The notes beneath the pieces were generated by a model. The model worked only from the letters and a program-made list of their open reading frames with translations, was not told where the DNA came from and made no database searches. Both the position numbers and the translations under genes were made by a program. From contig NZ_JAEDAE010000009.1 of the NCBI RefSeq assembly GCF_016056375.1, positions 124,001 through 188,000 of the forward strand: 64,000 nt of DNA, written 5' to 3'. This document shows positions 10,540 through 17,185 of the stretch, one piece after another; positions within the stretch are counted from its first letter, which is position 1, and each line of letters begins with the position of its first letter. Source of the stretch: Hymenobacter negativus. Its GTDB lineage: Bacteria; Bacteroidota; Bacteroidia; Cytophagales; Hymenobacteraceae.

Positions 10540-10908
10540 ATGCCCGATTATACGCCCGGTCTGCACATCCTGGCCACTTTTGCGGCGCCGCCCGCCGCCC
10601 TGCGCGATGCCGACAGCTGTCGCGCCTTCTTCGATGCCCAGGTGCTGGCCTTCGGGCTCGAAAAAGTGGGCGAGGCCTACCACAGCTTCCCGGCCGATGA
10701 AGCCGGCCCGGGAGGATTCACCGCCGTGCTGGCCCTGACGGAATCGCACCTGAGCATCCACACCTGGCCCGAGCACGGGCTGGCCACGTTCGACGTGTTT
10801 CTTTCCAATTTCCGGCGCGACAACGCGGCCACGGTGCGCGGCATCTACGCGGCCACGCTGGCGTTTTTTGAAGGCACTGAGCTCACCAAAACCGAAGTGC
10901 GCCGATGA
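10540..10908 (+). CDS. speD: S-adenosylmethionine decarboxylase proenzyme
   Basis: 122 residues from the ATG at 10540. The pyruvoyl-generating signature ESHLSIHTWPE is present, so self-cleavage should fall between Glu68 and Ser69, giving beta and alpha chains. An upstream in-frame extension overlaps the divergent gene and is rejected. The enzyme makes decarboxylated SAM, the aminopropyl donor for polyamine synthesis. Its stop overlaps the DUF4178 start by four bases (ATGA at 10905-10908), so the two are translationally coupled at the head of the cluster that also holds a membrane spermidine-synthase-like enzyme. A TATCTTG sequence at 10505 is a possible -7 box. Confidence 0.92.
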   Translation: MPDYTPGLHILATFAAPPAALRDADSCRAFFDAQVLAFGLEKVGEAYHSFPADEAGPGGFTAVLALTESHLSIHTWPEHGLATFDVFLSNFRRDNAATVRGIYAATLAFFEGTELTKTEVRR

Positions 10909-12194
10909 GCGAAACTGCTACGCCCCAGCCCGAATCGGCCCAGCTGGACTGCCCCGAGTGCCACACCAGCATCACGTACTACGACGTGGCAGGCAGCGAA
11001 TACTACGCCTGCCCCAACTGCCACGCGTATTTTCGGTGGTCGGGGGAGGAAACGCCCGAGGTATTCGGGAATTACAAGGATGCGCCCAAAACTTCGCCGG
11101 TGCTGCCGCTGGGTACTTTGGGTATTCTGGATGGCGCGCTCTACCGCGTGGTAGGCGTAGTGAGCCGGTGCGAGGCTAACCACCGGCAATACAGTTGGCG
11201 CGAATACCAGTTATTTCAGCCCGAGACCGGCCGCTACGTGCAGTTGGCCGAATATAATGGCCACTGGACACTGATTTGGGCCGCCAGCCACCTCGACAAG
11301 AACCGTGAGGATTTCAAGCTGGCCGATTTTAAGCTGTTCAACAAATACCAGCCGCGCATAAACTGGGCGCTGGGGGAGTTTGACTGGGACATCGAGCGCG
11401 ACGATACCCTGAATGTGGCCGAACATATCAACCCTCCGCGGCTGCTGGTACAGGAGCGCCGTGGCAAGGAACAGCAGTGGTACCGGGGCCGCCACGTAGC
11501 GCCTGATGAACTGGCCTCAGCTTTTAACATCAGTCGGAGTTCGCTGCCGCACCAGGAAGGTACGGGCGCGGTGGAACCCGCGCCGGGCAGCAACAGCCAC
11601 TCGGCCCTCTGGACGCTGACAGGTATTCTTACCGCGGCATTGGTACTCATTCAACTCGTGCTGGCGGTGCGCACTACGTCCGTACTTAGCCAGACCATTC
11701 AGGTGGCTCCCGATACTACGGCCACGGCCGCGCCCGGCACCGGCCGCGTGCTGGTTTCACCCTCCTTTACCCTCGACCATCAAACGGCCCTCGATATTGA
11801 ATTGAATGCCACGCTAAGCAATCAGTGGCTGGAATTGCCCGTGAGCCTCGTGAACGAGCAAACCGGGCGCGGCTTCGAGTTCACCAAAAACATTGAATTT
11901 TATAGCGGCGTCGAAGGCGGTGAAAGCTGGAGCGAAGGCAGCCGCAGTGCCGATGCCGTGCTTTCGCGGGTGCCGGCCGGCCGCTACCACCTAAATTTCT
12001 ATCCTTTCACTGAAAAAGGTGTAACCCCCGAAATCAGGGTGAATGTATGGGCCGACCCGGCACTGCCTTCGAATTTTTTCGTGGTGCTCGGGCTAATACT
12101 TCTGGTGCCCGGGCTCCAGTTGTTGCGCCGCCACTCTCACGAGCGCAGCCGCTGGTCCAACAGCGACTACAACCCTTATGCGACCGAAGAATAA
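10905..12194 (+). CDS. zinc-ribbon and DUF4178 membrane protein
   Basis: 429 residues. A zinc ribbon with two CxxC pairs (Cys16/19 and Cys36/39) opens the protein. It is followed by a DUF4178-like region (about 60-200; GTLGILDGALYRVVGVV, YSWREYQLF, GHWTLIWAAS), a membrane segment (about 235-262), an extracytoplasmic beta-rich region (about 275-390) and a second membrane segment near 395-415 before a basic tail. Function is unknown. From general knowledge, DUF4178 and DUF350 recur beside spermidine-synthase-like genes, as they do here. The start overlaps the end of speD; the next gene starts 10 bases after the stop. Confidence 0.8.
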   Translation: MSETATPQPESAQLDCPECHTSITYYDVAGSEYYACPNCHAYFRWSGEETPEVFGNYKDAPKTSPVLPLGTLGILDGALYRVVGVVSRCEANHRQYSWREYQLFQPETGRYVQLAEYNGHWTLIWAASHLDKNREDFKLADFKLFNKYQPRINWALGEFDWDIERDDTLNVAEHINPPRLLVQERRGKEQQWYRGRHVAPDELASAFNISRSSLPHQEGTGAVEPAPGSNSHSALWTLTGILTAALVLIQLVLAVRTTSVLSQTIQVAPDTTATAAPGTGRVLVSPSFTLDHQTALDIELNATLSNQWLELPVSLVNEQTGRGFEFTKNIEFYSGVEGGESWSEGSRSADAVLSRVPAGRYHLNFYPFTEKGVTPEIRVNVWADPALPSNFFVVLGLILLVPGLQLLRRHSHERSRWSNSDYNPYATEE

Positions 12195-12204
12195 GTCAAA
12201 CGGT

Positions 12205-12405
12205 ATGCTAGAAAATCTGCTCAACTTCCTGCGCCCGGTGCGCTTCTACGCGCTGCTGTTGCTGCTGCCGCTGGCCTGGTTTGCCTGGGGCACGGCCACC
12301 GGCACCCGCCTGCTCGGCGACGACAACGAGAGCACCGAAACCCTGAACGCGCCCGGCTCCGGCGGCCACGGCCACGCCGGGCGCGGCCTGTATTTCCACA
12401 AGTAA
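12205..12405 (+). CDS. tiny single-span membrane protein with Gly/His-rich tail
   Basis: 66 residues from the ATG at 12205; an upstream ATG at 12178 would overlap the DUF4178 gene and is less likely. One membrane segment (FYALLLLLPLAWFAWGTAT, about 13-31) is followed by an acidic stretch (DDNESTE) and a Gly/His-rich end (SGGHGHAGRGLYFHK). No family is recognised. Its place between DUF4178 and DUF350, with 10- and 11-base gaps, indicates it is a structural or accessory part of the cluster. The His-rich tail could bind a metal, which is speculation. Confidence 0.7.
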   Translation: MLENLLNFLRPVRFYALLLLLPLAWFAWGTATGTRLLGDDNESTETLNAPGSGGHGHAGRGLYFHK

Positions 12406-12416
12406 CCGCCTTTCCC

Positions 12417-12632
12417 ATGGAATACCTCAACGCCAAAGCCCTCGCGGCTTCCGTCATTTATTCGCTGCTCGGCATCATCATTCTGGTGGTCAGCTTTTAT
12501 GTATTCAACAAACTGACGCCGGGCACCTTGCGCAAGGAGATTATGGAGGAGCACAACACTGCCCTGGCTATTCTCGGCGCGGCCTTTATGCTGGCCGTGG
12601 CCATTATCATCAGCGCCGCCATTCATGGCTGA
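12417..12632 (+). CDS. DUF350 membrane protein
   Basis: 71 residues with two membrane segments (about 8-30 and 47-69) joined by a polar loop (NKLTPGTLRKEIMEEHNTA). This is the DUF350 pattern, with the N-x-A-L-A-I-L-G-A start of the second helix. Proteins with DUF350 usually carry two or more copies; this is a single-copy form and would have to oligomerise. No biochemical role is established. Its last eight bases overlap the start of the membrane spermidine-synthase-like gene, indicating tight cotranslation. Confidence 0.85.
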   Translation: MEYLNAKALAASVIYSLLGIIILVVSFYVFNKLTPGTLRKEIMEEHNTALAILGAAFMLAVAIIISAAIHG

Positions 12633-14202
12633 GTTGCTGGATGCACCCGCCCCGGCGGCCCCGGTCGATGCCCGCGCCGCAGGCGGCCCCGAAGCGCGGC
12701 TGCCGGGCCTGTTGCTGGCGGCGGTGGCCGTGATTGCCACCTGCGGGCTGATTTATGAGCTGATTGCCGGCACGCTGGCCTCCTACCTGCTGGGCGACTC
12801 GGTCACGCAGTTTTCCACCATCATCGGGGCCTATCTGTTTGCGATGGGCATCGGCTCGTGGCTCTCCAGGTTTCTGGAAGGCTCGCTGCTGCGCTGGTTT
12901 ATCAGGCTCGAAATACTGGTGGGGCTGGTGGGCGGCTGCATGGCCCCGCTCCTGTTCCTGAGCTTTGAGTACGTGGCCTCGTTTCGCCTGCTGCTCTACA
13001 CGCTGGTGGGCCTCACGGGCGTGCTGGTGGGGCTCGAAATTCCGCTGCTGATGCGAATTCTAGAGCACCGCTACCCTTTTAAGGACCTAGTGGCGCGGGT
13101 GTTCACCTTCGATTACGTGGGCGCACTGCTGGCTTCGCTAATATTTCCGCTGGTGCTGGTGCCGCAACTGGGGCTGATTCGTACCTCGCTGGTTTTCGGG
13201 GCGCTGAACCTGGCCGTGGCCGCCGTGGTGCTGGCCCGCTTCCCCGAAACGCGGCCCTACCGCCGGCGCTTCGGGGTGGGCATTGCGGTGGCGCTGCTGG
13301 GGCTGGCGGTGCTGTTTGGCTTCGCCAACAAGCTGCTGGCCTACACCGAAAACCTGGCTTTTCAGGACCAGGTTATTTACTCGAAATCAACTCCCTACCA
13401 GCGCATCGTCCTCACCCGCAACCCGCGCGAGCTGCGCCTGTTCCTCAACGGCAACCTGCAGTTCAGTTCCGCCGATGAGTACCGCTACCACGAAGCTTTA
13501 GTGCATCCGCTCATGCAGGCCTTACCCCAGGCCCGCCGCGTGCTGGTGATGGGCGGCGGCGACGGCCTGGCCGTGCGCGAACTGCTGAAATACCCGCGCC
13601 TGACCAGTATCAAGCTCGTCGACCTCGACGCGGGCATGACTGAGCTATTCAAGCACAACGAGCTGCTGCTGGGCCTAAACAAAGGCTCCCTCAATAACCC
13701 CAAAGTGCAGGTCATCAACGCCGACGCCTACCAGTGGATTCGGCAGGACACCACGCGCTACGATGCCATCATCGTGGACTTTCCCGACCCCGGCAACTAC
13801 TCCATCGGCAAGCTGTATTCGGCCGCGTTCTACACGGCGCTGGCCAAGCGGCTGGCTTCAGGCGGGCGGCTGGTGGTGCAAAGCACCTCGCCGTTTCTGG
13901 CTCGGCAGTCGTTTTGGTGCGTGGCGCACACGCTGGCGGCCGTGGGCCTGCACACCATCCCCTATCACCTCTACGTGCCCTCCTTCGGCGAGTGGGGTTA
14001 CGTGCTGGCGGGCCCCGACACGCACTGGCGAGGCGATATGAGCCCGCTGCCGGCGGGGTTGCGCTACATCACCCCGGCCACCATTCACGACATGCTGCGC
14101 TTTCCGCCCGACATGAGCGAAGTGCCGACGGAGGTTAACCAGCTCAATAACCAGGTGCTGGTGCGGTATTTTGAGGAAGACTGGGGGCCGTATGTGCATT
14201 AA
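12625..14202 (+). CDS. membrane-anchored spermidine synthase-like aminopropyltransferase
   Basis: 525 residues. The N-terminal ~230 residues form about seven membrane helices. The C-terminal part is a spermidine synthase fold: YHEALVHPLM substrate gate (about 290), MGGGDGLAVRELLKY nucleotide-binding loop (about 308), acidic DLD at the end of the next strand, and VDFPDP carrying the paired Asp of the active site. The catalytic residues look intact, so it should transfer an aminopropyl group from decarboxy-SAM supplied by the cluster's speD. Soluble SpeE is about 290 residues; the membrane domain is the extra part. The acceptor could be a diamine or a membrane-associated molecule. Confidence 0.88.
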   Translation: MAELLDAPAPAAPVDARAAGGPEARLPGLLLAAVAVIATCGLIYELIAGTLASYLLGDSVTQFSTIIGAYLFAMGIGSWLSRFLEGSLLRWFIRLEILVGLVGGCMAPLLFLSFEYVASFRLLLYTLVGLTGVLVGLEIPLLMRILEHRYPFKDLVARVFTFDYVGALLASLIFPLVLVPQLGLIRTSLVFGALNLAVAAVVLARFPETRPYRRRFGVGIAVALLGLAVLFGFANKLLAYTENLAFQDQVIYSKSTPYQRIVLTRNPRELRLFLNGNLQFSSADEYRYHEALVHPLMQALPQARRVLVMGGGDGLAVRELLKYPRLTSIKLVDLDAGMTELFKHNELLLGLNKGSLNNPKVQVINADAYQWIRQDTTRYDAIIVDFPDPGNYSIGKLYSAAFYTALAKRLASGGRLVVQSTSPFLARQSFWCVAHTLAAVGLHTIPYHLYVPSFGEWGYVLAGPDTHWRGDMSPLPAGLRYITPATIHDMLRFPPDMSEVPTEVNQLNNQVLVRYFEEDWGPYVH

Positions 14203-14372
14203 CCTTACCCCCCGCCCCCTCTCCTTGGGGAGAGGGGAGCCTGACTACCGTAGCGCATGCTTTAGCTTGTGATTAAAAATAAATTATAACCCGGCACAAA
14301 CTAAAGCATGTGCCTCAAGCCGCGCTGCCTAGGCTCCCCCTCTCCCCAAGGGGAGGAGGCCGGGGGTGAGGT
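14203..14372. repeat. composite imperfect palindrome (CCTCACCCCCGGCC / TGCTTTAGCTTGTG repeat)
   Basis: The outer arms (14203-14244 and 14331-14372) are imperfect reverse complements made of the CCCCTCTCC...GGAGAGGGG module. An inner pair, GCATGCTTTAGCTTGTG (14255-14271) and CACAAACTAAAGCATG, faces an AT-rich centre. The outer module recurs inside a coding region at 61677-61716 and the inner one at 32633-32646. It separates the SpeE-like gene from the flavoprotein gene and forms a large hairpin that could attenuate transcription between them. Confidence 0.85.
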
Positions 14373-14385
14373 AAACCGCTAGATA

Positions 14386-16032
14386 ATGCCCACCCGTCGC
14401 TCCTTCCTGGCCCAAAGCGGGGCGGCCCTCACCGGGGCGCTGTTGCTGCCGGCTCTCCCCAGCTGCGCACCCACCAACCCGCTGGCCCACATCAAAGGCC
14501 AAATGCGGGGCCAGGACGCTGCCACTGGCCACCTGCTGCGCGACCCCGGCCGGATTCCAGCGCCCACCCAAACCCTTGACACCGATGTGCTCATCATCGG
14601 TGGCGGGGTGGCGGGGCTGTCGGCGCGGCGCTGGCTGCACCTGCACGGCCAAACTAACACGCTGCTGGTGGAGCTGTCTCCCGAAACCGGCGGCAACGCC
14701 AGTGCCGGCCGCAACGCCGCCTCGGCCTACCCCTGGGGTGCGCACTACCTGCCCGTGCCTGATATGCGCAATACCGAGTTGCTGGAGTTTCTGCAGGCCG
14801 CCGGCACGCTCACCGGCTACGCGCCCGACGGCCGGCCCATTTACAACGATTACCAGCTCTGCCACGACCCCGAGGAGCGGCTCAACATCGAAGGCCATTG
14901 GCAGGAGGGGCTGGTACCCGCTTTAGGGCTGAGCGCCGCCGACCAGGCCCAGGTGGCCCGGTTTTTCAAGCTGACTGAAACGCTGAAAACCACTGTGGGC
15001 CGCGATGGGCATGACATTTTCCGCATCCCGCTCGACCAATCCTCAACCGACGAAGAATACCGCCAGCTCGACAAAATTTCCTTCGCCGCCTACCTCGACC
15101 GCGAGGGCTTTACCGCGCCCGCCCTGCGCTGGTACCTCGACTACGCCTGCCGCGACGACTACGGTGCCCACGCCGCGCAGGTATCGGCCTGGGCCGGGCT
15201 GCACTACTTTGCCAGCCGCAAGGGCAGCGCCCACAATGCCACCGGCGCCGACGTGCTGACCTGGCCCGAAGGCAACCACTTCCTGACGGAAAATCTGCGC
15301 CGCCAGGCCAGCGCCCCCATCCATACCCAAACCCTGGCCTACGACCTACGCGAAACTGCCAGCGGCATCGAAGCCCTGATTTACAGCGTAGCCACGCGCC
15401 AAAGCACCCGCGTGCGCGCCCGGCAGGTGCTGCTGGCCACGCCGCAGCACATTGCCCACCACCTGCTGGCCGCCGTACCCGGCCACCAGCTGCCGCCCCC
15501 CGGCGTGCTGCACCACGCGCCCTGGCTCATTGCCAACCTCACCGTAGCGGGCCTGCCGCAAGGCCCCGGCCGCCCCCTGAGCTGGGACAACGTGCGCTAC
15601 GGCAGCGCCTCACTGGGCTACATCAACGCCACCCAACAGTCAATCAAACAGGACGATGGCAGCCCGAAAGTCATTACCCTCTACTGGCCCCTGACCGACG
15701 AAATGCCCGGCCCCGCCCGCCGCCGCGCCTACCAAACCAGCTATGCCGAGTGGCTGCCCCGCGTGGTGGCCGAGCTCGAAACTTACCACCCCGGCGTGAT
15801 GCCCTACATCCAGCAGGCCGACCTTTGGGTGTGGGGCCACGGCATGGTGGCGCCCACGCCGGGCCTGCTCTGGGGCGCGGCGCGGGCGGCGGCCAGTCAG
15901 CCGGTGCACGGCCGGGTGTTCTTTGCGCATACCGATTACAGCGGCATTTCGATTTTTGAAGAGGGATTTTATCAGGGGATTCGGGCGGCGCGGGAGATGC
16001 TGGGTACCGGTAGAAAGCCGTTGTCATCCTGA
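14386..16032 (+). CDS. Tat-exported FAD-dependent oxidoreductase (amine oxidase-like)
   Basis: 548 residues. The N terminus has a twin-arginine signal (RRSFLAQ), a hydrophobic stretch and a Cys in LPSCAP, so it is probably a folded, flavin-loaded lipoprotein exported by Tat. A dinucleotide-binding GGGVAGLSA motif lies near residue 70 and a GG-containing second FAD loop follows. The C-terminal region (GHGMVAPTPGLLWG...FAHTDYSGISIFEEGF) is the FAD-closing element of amine oxidase-like proteins. Position after the spermidine-synthase-like gene suggests it oxidises the cluster product; the substrate is not known. Its stop codon lies inside the left arm of the palindromic repeat at 16023-16122. 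Confidence 0.8.
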   Translation: MPTRRSFLAQSGAALTGALLLPALPSCAPTNPLAHIKGQMRGQDAATGHLLRDPGRIPAPTQTLDTDVLIIGGGVAGLSARRWLHLHGQTNTLLVELSPETGGNASAGRNAASAYPWGAHYLPVPDMRNTELLEFLQAAGTLTGYAPDGRPIYNDYQLCHDPEERLNIEGHWQEGLVPALGLSAADQAQVARFFKLTETLKTTVGRDGHDIFRIPLDQSSTDEEYRQLDKISFAAYLDREGFTAPALRWYLDYACRDDYGAHAAQVSAWAGLHYFASRKGSAHNATGADVLTWPEGNHFLTENLRRQASAPIHTQTLAYDLRETASGIEALIYSVATRQSTRVRARQVLLATPQHIAHHLLAAVPGHQLPPPGVLHHAPWLIANLTVAGLPQGPGRPLSWDNVRYGSASLGYINATQQSIKQDDGSPKVITLYWPLTDEMPGPARRRAYQTSYAEWLPRVVAELETYHPGVMPYIQQADLWVWGHGMVAPTPGLLWGAARAAASQPVHGRVFFAHTDYSGISIFEEGFYQGIRAAREMLGTGRKPLSS

Positions 16033-16122
16033 GCGGAGCGAAGGACCTTATCACGTTCGCACCAACTGATTTACTGCTCATAGTTCAGACATGACAAGGT
16101 CCTTCGCTCCGCTCAGGATGAC
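16023..16122. repeat. GTCATCCTGAGCGGAGCGAAGG-type palindromic repeat
   Basis: 27-bp perfect arms at 16023-16049 and 16096-16122 around a 46-base spacer. The arm shares the outline GTCATnCnGAnCGnAGnGAAGnACCTT with the copy at 50621-50705. The TGA of the flavoprotein gene (16030-16032) is within the left arm, so that gene's last codons are repeat-derived. Confidence 0.95.
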
Positions 16123-16150
16123 AAACAAATAACCTGCAACTCCTTCTTTC

Positions 16151-17185
16151 ATGCCCCAACCCTGGATTCGCTCCCCACGCTACGACGGCCTGCTCATCCT
16201 CGCGCCGCCGTTTCTGGCGCTCCTGGTGGTGCTGGGGCTGCCGGCGCCCTACCGGCACTCGGCGGCGATGCCGCTACTGGCCTGGGTGGCGCTAGTGGTG
16301 CTCATCGATGTAGCCCACGTGTACGGCACGCTGTTTCAGACCTACTTCGACCCCGTGAACAGACGGCAGCGGCGCACGCTGCTGTGGGTAGCTCCGCTGG
16401 CCTGCTACGCGGCGGGCGTGGCCCTGCACAGCCTGGGCGGACTGGTATTCTGGCGGGCGCTGGCCTACCTGGCAGTGTTCCACTTTATCCGGCAGCAGTA
16501 CGGGTTTCTGCGGATTTATAGCCGGCACGATGCGCCGGCGCCCGGCCGCTGGCTGGCCACGGCGCTGATTTATTACGCCACCATCTACCCGCTGCTCTAC
16601 TGGCATTTTTCGCCGGGGCGCAACTTCAACTGGTTTGTTGATGGGGATTTTGTGCAACTCGACTGGCCGACGGGTCGCGCCATCGCCACGGGGCTTTACG
16701 TCGGATTGATTGCCGCTTACACGACCCGCGAAAGCTGGCTTTGGTGGCGTACCCGCACCTTTAATATGCCGCGCAATCTGCTGCTGGCCGGCACGCTGGT
16801 ATCGTGGTACGTAGGCATTGTGCTCTTCAACGGCGACCTGGCCTTCACGCTGCTCAACGTGGTGTCGCACGGCATCCCCTACCTGGCGCTGGTGTGGGCC
16901 GGTGGGCCAAAATCAGCCCAGGCGCCCGCTCCCATCAGGCGCGGGGCGTGGGCCGGGCGCTACGGGCTGGCCGTTTTCATTGGGGCTGTCGTGCTGTTCG
17001 CATTCCTCGAAGAAGGCCTTTGGGACGGACTGGTGTGGCGCGAGCACGGCACGTTGTTCGGCTGGTTTCAGCACTTGCCCGCCATTGCCAGCCCCGCGCT
17101 GCTGATGTGGCTGGTGCCGCTGCTGGCGCTGCCCCAATCCACCCACTACGTGCTCGACGGGTTCATCTGGCGGCGGAAAAAATAG
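16151..17185 (+). CDS. polytopic membrane protein with conserved-looking His residues, unknown function
   Basis: 344 residues, about eight to nine predicted membrane helices. Several His lie in or next to helices: VLIDVAHVYGT, AVFHFIRQQYGFLRIYSRH, NVVSHGIPYLALVW and STHYVLDGFIWR. Such spacing is reminiscent of integral-membrane metal enzymes (desaturase/hydroxylase or Brp/Blh-like proteins), but no full family signature is seen, so function is not assigned. It follows the exported flavoprotein after a palindromic repeat and is the last gene on this strand in the block, so it may belong to the polyamine-type cluster. Confidence 0.65.
   Translation: MPQPWIRSPRYDGLLILAPPFLALLVVLGLPAPYRHSAAMPLLAWVALVVLIDVAHVYGTLFQTYFDPVNRRQRRTLLWVAPLACYAAGVALHSLGGLVFWRALAYLAVFHFIRQQYGFLRIYSRHDAPAPGRWLATALIYYATIYPLLYWHFSPGRNFNWFVDGDFVQLDWPTGRAIATGLYVGLIAAYTTRESWLWWRTRTFNMPRNLLLAGTLVSWYVGIVLFNGDLAFTLLNVVSHGIPYLALVWAGGPKSAQAPAPIRRGAWAGRYGLAVFIGAVVLFAFLEEGLWDGLVWREHGTLFGWFQHLPAIASPALLMWLVPLLALPQSTHYVLDGFIWRRKK

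Follow-up and report, generated by a model that had tools for sequence, protein, structure and literature searches.

We analyzed a 64,000-nucleotide stretch of the Hymenobacter negativus genome (assembly GCF_016056375.1, contig NZ_JAEDAE010000009.1, positions 124,001 to 188,000 of the forward strand; hereafter the window), in which seven plus-strand genes form one run that includes a seven-transmembrane (7TM) domain fused to a spermidine-synthase-like aminopropyltransferase (hereafter SpdSyn). Our central proposal, to which we give a probability of roughly 0.55, is that this cluster makes a protein-bound polyamine: SpdSyn would aminopropylate the C-terminal lysine of a carrier protein, giving it a polyamine-like cationic tail. 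An initial annotation, made from the sequence alone, had proposed that decarboxylated S-adenosylmethionine (decarboxy-SAM) is used at the membrane, which we judge a fair reading, and had left the acceptor open; our data point to the C-terminal lysine of a 66-residue protein with one transmembrane (TM) segment as the putative acceptor. The new point is that the terminal lysine of this small protein is conserved while its sequence otherwise drifts.

The gene for the small protein (12205..12405) lies between those for a zinc-ribbon DUF4178 membrane protein (10905..12194) and a short-form DUF350 membrane protein of 71 residues (12417..12632). Its product ends in ...GRGLYFHK, and the codon of the last lysine (12400..12402) is immediately 5' of the stop codon. 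Conservation was followed in 87 SpdSyn loci, comprising the window, six loci from an order set of 79 genomes of the window's order, and 80 named-genome loci (the best 80 of 584); L048 and L112 are one contig, so that the 87 loci correspond to 86 distinct ones. A C-terminal lysine was found in 73/73 loci (72 distinct) with DUF4178 at most 4 kb upstream of SpdSyn (65 found by script, L082, L091, L103 and L131 by hand, and four fused to DUF4178), and the ending is HK in each of the seven order-set genomes with a close SpdSyn. The penultimate residue of the 65 script-found tails is H (51) or G (14), and the inner columns vary. In the Burkholderiales loci L133, L136, L146 and L147 DUF4178 itself ends in the tail (...SGGSHK or ...SGGGHK), and in L091 and L103 DUF4178 ends in lysine besides a separate small protein. 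The small-protein frames of L093, L145, L185 and L190 extend upstream, and only their ending was counted. As background, these loci contain 986 gene calls, of which 88 have K as the last residue and 11 have HK or GK as the last two; TM-bearing frames with another last residue occurred in the same interval of non-fused loci in at most four loci per residue.

A further test was provided by 14 genomes without a nearby DUF4178, all of which carry DUF4178 farther away, on the same contig in L129, L138, L139, L142 and L144 and otherwise on another contig. Just downstream of this distant DUF4178, a lysine tail is present in all 11 readable genomes (in nine on a small one-TM protein, in one as a fused tail, and in one on a lipoprotein-type protein ending GGK); the other three are interrupted by contig ends. 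The lysine tail is also retained in L093, L117 and L131, which have no adjacent flavoenzyme, and the lysine therefore follows SpdSyn. Copies of the enzyme were sorted by identity under labels of our own (types I-a, I-b and II; unpublished), and the order set contains two kinds besides the close one. Six of the 11 type I-b loci (42–47% identical; L051, L052, L054, L055, L058, and L061) encode a small TM protein with YGK or GGK at its C-terminus.

Type II SpdSyn (35–39% identical, 16 genomes) is often located apart from DUF4178, and the candidate carrier of these genomes is a lipoprotein. A shorter DUF4178 copy, present in 15 genomes, has a lipoprotein directly downstream or fused to it in 13, and these 13 lipoproteins end in K in 12 cases and in RRRR in one (L232). 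No lipoprotein was detected at the shorter DUF4178 copy of L230 or L241; the genome of L230 has one elsewhere (L274), and no carrier of the lipoprotein type was found for L241. DUF4178 paralogues of ~310–340 residues (L236–L240) have no lysine tail and were excluded from the carrier count. A search with one of the lipoproteins, that of L077, detected relatives, mostly of 250–340 residues, in 21 genomes. They end in K in 16/16 genomes with type II SpdSyn and in RRRR or RKRR in 5/5 genomes without it (Fisher p 4.9e-5). The window's own genome (G000) contains no relative of the L077 lipoprotein at E 1e-6, and G033 (84% complete) encodes DUF4178 with neither a SpdSyn nor a lipoprotein match.

The five genomes with arginine tails are G003 (type I-b SpdSyn only), G018, G023, G039 and G054. 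Profile searches detected no 7TM-SpdSyn in G039, and only weak matches to ~140 enzyme-domain positions, in frames of ~230 residues, in G018 and G054. A 224-residue frame in G023 (G023:C3:194449-195108; L284, L289) matches both ends of SpdSyn, with most of the enzyme domain gone; G003, of the same genus, keeps an intact SpdSyn copy. Arginines thus replace the lysine where the matching enzyme is missing, which suggests that a cationic tail is what matters on the carrier. Separately, tatC was observed directly 3' of the lysine-tail lipoprotein gene in L222 (TatC by Pfam) and L223 (by look-alike sequence).

The enzyme that would act on these tails (12625..14202) matches the NCBIfam polyamine aminopropyltransferase model NF002956 (666.7 bits vs a cut-off of 472; 2e-200) and Pfam Spermine_synth (114.2 bits vs a cut-off of 22.9). 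DExxYHE, GxGDG and DxPDP, the donor-site and catalytic motifs of aminopropyltransferases, are invariant in 19/19 SpdSyn sequences and align with those of solved enzymes. Lysine and arginine are more numerous in loops 2, 4 and 6 than in loops 1, 3 and 5 of the membrane domain in 86/86 SpdSyn and in 19/19 of a broader set that overlaps with it. Net charge averages -1.09 in the stretch after TM7, and loop 5 is exceptional at +1.24. By the positive-inside rule, these loop charges would place the enzyme domain outside the cytoplasm. Such a location agrees with the lipoprotein-like N-termini of the type II carriers, the twin-arginine translocation (Tat)-type signal of the flavoenzyme, and the charge of the small protein, which suggests a cytoplasmic N-terminus. 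Judged by these patterns, the tail may lie outside the cytoplasm together with the SpdSyn domain and the Tat-exported flavoenzyme.

We propose the following mechanism. SpeD would produce decarboxy-SAM, which the 7TM part would pass to its own enzyme domain outside the cytoplasm; SpdSyn would then move the aminopropyl group, once or repeatedly, onto the side-chain amine of the carrier's C-terminal lysine. The acceptor would be the 66-residue one-TM protein here and, in relatives, either a lipoprotein or a DUF4178-fused tail. Because the aminobutyl arm of lysine is chemically like putrescine, the reaction would leave a flexible tail whose C-terminal residue resembles spermidine. Where the flavoenzyme is present, it may oxidize the modified tail or trim it, the polytopic protein being a putative partner, and the system could serve to supply the membrane with a cationic tail that is regulated and linked to PspA-type maintenance of the envelope. 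More tentatively, and at somewhat less than even odds, we extend this to a family of envelope protein aminopropyltransferases, in which a transporter-enzyme fusion uses decarboxy-SAM outside the cytoplasm, arginine runs can stand in for the product, and an exported amine oxidase can edit the tail.

The seven-gene run itself was described correctly in the initial annotation: open reading frames and Pfam and NCBIfam matches agree with the families, coordinates, and overlaps or gaps of about 11 bases given there. The speD and DUF4178 genes overlap by 4 bases, gaps of 10 and 11 bases flank the small-protein gene, the DUF350 and SpdSyn genes overlap by 8 bases, and the flavoprotein and polytopic-protein genes follow after 183 and 118 bases, respectively. 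Matches of the window proteins to AdoMet_dc, DUF4178, DUF350, Spermine_synth and Amino_oxidase pass the Pfam cut-off, and the 66-residue and polytopic proteins have no Pfam or NCBIfam family above cut-off. In the whole genome (5.1 Mb, 19 contigs), DUF4178 (PF13785), Spermine_synth and AdoMet_dc have one match each, all within the cluster.

Linkage of these genes is conserved beyond this genome. Among the order-set genomes, 27/79 encode 7TM-SpdSyn (34 copies, E ≤1e-40), and seven from four families, the window's genome included, encode a close SpdSyn (≥55% identical). The order speD, DUF4178, small protein, DUF350, SpdSyn, flavoenzyme, polytopic protein is the same in 7/7 genomes with close SpdSyn, and all seven parts are present in 35/87 loci, which is more than chance. 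An iterated profile search of the 87 loci detected speD in 62, DUF4178 in 74, DUF350 in 72, the flavoenzyme in 75 and the polytopic protein in 42; when strict positions are required, these counts become 61, 73, 69, 73 and 42, respectively, the flavoenzyme matches in L138 and L145 sitting in overlong frames. The initial annotation's inclusion of an exported flavoenzyme in the system is thus borne out, with no flavoenzyme match in the remaining 12/87 loci, each of which has more than 600 bases of downstream sequence. DUF4178 occurs in 32/79 order-set genomes (31 above the family cut-off), including all 27 with SpdSyn (Fisher p 2e-16). Flavoenzyme relatives (E 1e-20) were found in 12 order-set genomes, all among the same 27 (hypergeometric p 3.4e-7, uncorrected for kinship), and polytopic-protein relatives (E 1e-8) in 15, of which 15/15 have 7TM-SpdSyn (hypergeometric p 3.2e-9, likewise uncorrected). 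Outside the seven close genomes, the five weaker relatives of the flavoenzyme include one that adjoins a SpdSyn (L065).

In L047, L049 and L050, one additional gene is located between speD and DUF4178; its product has 194–214 residues and a zinc-ribbon-like start, and gave a weak second DUF4178 match in L047 and no Pfam match in L049. Titles of the named genomes include Bacteroidetes, Acidobacteria, Gemmatimonadetes, Verrucomicrobia, several proteobacterial classes, Leptospiraceae and Nitrospinota, and these taxon labels need caution because many are metagenome bins. Within the window's genus the cluster is patchy, being carried by 3/6 genomes in the order set. Pfam also identified PspA and CesT (L234), Band-7 (L117) and a TrkA-type ion channel (L242) near the system genes; L138 has a PspA-like protein near them, recognized by sequence only.

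The product of the flavoprotein gene (14386..16032) belongs to the flavin amine oxidase family (Pfam Amino_oxidase, 26.4 vs a cut-off of 19.8 bits; Amino_oxidase in 37/40 members) and carries a Tat-type motif (TRRSFL) together with a cysteine at a lipobox-like place (LPSC). A Tat-type motif is present in 33 of the 40 N-termini parsed, the rest of the 75 sequences being fragments or lacking a match to the flavin adenine dinucleotide (FAD)-site motif. The predicted structure (predicted local distance difference test (pLDDT) 91.8) resembles monoamine oxidase, putrescine oxidase and spermidine dehydrogenase (fold matches 8p84, E 3.3e-23; 2yg7; 7d9j), as well as protoporphyrinogen oxidase. Inverted repeats were observed at 14213-14361 and 16028-16117, in both gaps flanking the gene; with up to four mismatches allowed, such pairs occur nowhere else in the window.

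The polytopic membrane protein (16151..17185) has no known family: it had no PDB sequence match at E 1, and Pfam gave stray matches in single members only. A function by fold was rejected, the best PDB match having E 0.37 despite a good model (pLDDT 90.1). It had been called "His-rich" in the initial annotation, a description that does not hold for 10 histidines among 344 residues; several histidines are invariant, however, in a set conserved across 33 sequences (D53, H56, H111, R114, Q115, Q116, H240, E287, E288, H332, and D336). In the type II genomes of L246 and L247, genes for the polytopic protein, a flavoenzyme of the Tat type and a DUF350-type protein stand in succession, the latter two confirmed by Pfam in L246.

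SpeD (10540..10908), an S-adenosylmethionine (AdoMet) decarboxylase of class 1b type, retains the pyruvoyl Ser63 and His68 (ESHLSIHTW). It passes the Pfam cut-off and falls below that of NCBIfam TIGR03330 (57.8 vs 75.65 bits). On the Nitrospinota contig of L110, 1588-2976 downstream of the SpdSyn start, a 462-residue frame is matched by both the flavoenzyme and SpeD profiles, possibly a fusion or a frame artefact. The roles of Ser63, His68 and Cys83 in AdoMet decarboxylase are described in the accessible part of PMC10407285.

Several observations weigh against modification of the terminal lysine by SpdSyn outside the cytoplasm. At the position of the catalytic Cys83, the window SpeD has serine (DVFLSN). 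Among 48 of the 62 cluster SpeDs that could be parsed, this position is Ser in 32 (mostly Bacteroidota) and Cys in 16 (Flavobacterium among them); most printed stretches of the other 14 read ...FCC there. We considered SpeD as a neofunctionalized ornithine or arginine decarboxylase and dropped the idea, the diagnostic residues being shown in PMC10407285 only as a figure; the change from Cys83 to Ser is kept as an anomaly. The hydropathy of the SpdSyn fusion is compatible with seven segments, which were split by eye, with two pairs running together and a weak second segment, and the topology is drawn from hydropathy and charge counts only. The bias of the small protein towards a cytoplasmic N-terminus appears moderate by charge (37/62, with 9 equal and 16 opposite). 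To our knowledge, there is no precedent for export of decarboxy-SAM or its presence outside the cytoplasm. No lysine tail was found nearby in 5/11 type I-b loci (L053, L056, L057, L059, and L060), and the tail-less type I-b locus of G003 has an intact SpdSyn, with a lipoprotein ending in Arg. The five arginine-tailed proteins form one clade (FastTree support 0.91), and the contrast between lysine and arginine may therefore reflect a single event. Four of the five flavoenzyme relatives in type II genomes (L248–L251) do not adjoin SpdSyn. Finally, SpdSyn and SpeD each occur only once in the window's genome. It has no nspC match (one family model only), so that the carboxyspermidine route, considered as another source of spermidine, was set aside.

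These last features would suit conversion of putrescine to ordinary spermidine or some other free polyamine, with the membrane anchor doing no more than placing the enzyme and the lysine-tail protein serving as a structural or regulatory subunit, and the match of SpdSyn to an NCBIfam equivalog for polyamine aminopropyltransferases, with its catalytic residues kept, is equally in keeping with it. Yet free polyamine synthesis leaves unexplained why two dissimilar carriers share a lysine at the last position and why arginines appear where type II SpdSyn is missing, and we regard it as improbable. Slightly better placed, though still unlikely in our estimation, is aminopropylation of a lipid or another small envelope molecule, with the lysine-tail protein positioning the enzyme or binding the product. 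This was the second option of the initial annotation, and the membrane setting and the polyamine and PspA links in the accessible part of Ravi 2024 (PMC11237479) speak for it. A purely binding tail, however, would not need lysine at the exact last position in 73/73 loci, and no lipid-modifying gene turned up among the seven genes, none having been searched for across the clusters. The terminal lysine might instead serve only the flavin amine oxidase, which would oxidize it to an aldehyde while SpdSyn acts on another substrate, as the monoamine/putrescine-oxidase fold and the frequent Tat-type signal (33/40) would allow. We give this very little credence: lysine tails accompany SpdSyn without an adjacent flavoenzyme not only in L093, L117 and L131 but also in L051 and L054, the search for distant flavoenzymes covering, among these genomes, G040 and the second locus of G055 (E 1e-20 set).

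If the lysine of the carrier is indeed aminopropylated, the question of the SpdSyn acceptor becomes testable by one mass, +57.06 Da on a short C-terminal peptide. The proposal would also give a function to a widespread gene set comprising DUF350, DUF4178 and a tiny protein outside family models, and would represent a new kind of protein modification and a use of decarboxy-SAM outside the cytoplasm.

Part of this system has been described before. In its accessible part, Ravi 2024 (PMC11237479) reports that 7TM-SpdSyn, DUF350 and DUF4178 share an operon with a lipoprotein and a CesT/Tir-PspA pair, and that a second group combines DUF350 with an ATP-grasp enzyme and, in variants, with AdoMet decarboxylase and polyamine oxidase. 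The SpdSyn fusion is given seven TM segments there too, and the authors propose that polyamines or aminopropylation of other substrates are linked to PspA-type membrane dynamics and that the systems may monitor them. Because both the gene core and membrane decarboxy-SAM chemistry appear in that work, neither is new. The initial interpretation is thus a fair one for membrane decarboxy-SAM chemistry, holds for linkage and the flavoenzyme, and fails where it called the pathway "undescribed". As far as the accessible part of Ravi 2024 goes, its operon and the window share the 7TM-SpdSyn fusion, DUF350 and DUF4178. They differ in that a one-TM, 66-residue lysine-tail protein takes the place of the lipoprotein (Ctha_1186 domain) in the window, and in that the run includes speD and a gene for an exported amine oxidase. 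The CesT/Tir-PspA pair of that operon has no counterpart among the window's seven genes, to which the search was confined. Our guess is that the lysine-tail lipoprotein of the L077 type is the Ctha_1186 family. The terminal lysine is not mentioned in the accessible part of Ravi 2024, beyond which the open-licence literature yielded no relevant paper on a C-terminal lysine acceptor.

Known flavin amine oxidases, including SpdH, share the fold and the Pfam Amino_oxidase family with the window flavoenzyme, but are 13–18% identical to it among the 50 matches listed, and the flavoenzyme has invariant residues of its own. A 2019 study by Li reportedly linked AdoMet decarboxylase to a fusion of SpdSyn with a major facilitator superfamily (MFS) domain that acts on an acceptor other than putrescine. 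Such species are said to lack spermidine, the fusion reportedly did not complement an E. coli speE mutant, and the acceptor is said to have been left unnamed. That gene pair is reportedly the same as speD and the SpdSyn fusion of the window.

Peptide-spermidine ligases of E. coli were reportedly treated by Pederick in 2023. In the E. coli yjf operon, YjfL is DUF350 and YjfJ is PspA. RefSeq names YjfC, like YgiC, a peptide-spermidine ligase; the proteins adjoining them, YjfM and YgiB, end in Gly-Gly. The resemblance of YjfIJKLMC and YgiBC to the proposed system lies in DUF350 and PspA (yjf), in a DUF1190 protein whose C-terminal tail is flexible and rich in Gly/Ser, and in an enzyme joining polyamine to peptide, as SpdSyn would. 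The E. coli ligase, an ATP-grasp enzyme as classed in the accessible part of Ravi 2024 (PMC11237479), works with ready-made spermidine, whereas in the window the polyamine would be built on the terminal lysine. Pfam detected no ATP-grasp domain among the window's seven proteins, and the window tail ends in HK, not Gly-Gly. In E. coli, ready-made spermidine would be joined to the terminal carboxylate, with YjfM and YgiB as the putative ligase substrates. This sister operon supports the view that envelope proteins can carry polyamine tails, because it has peptide-spermidine ligases beside Gly-Gly proteins, and our proposal, if true, would unite the SpdSyn systems and the E. coli ligases as systems that place polyamine tails on envelope proteins.

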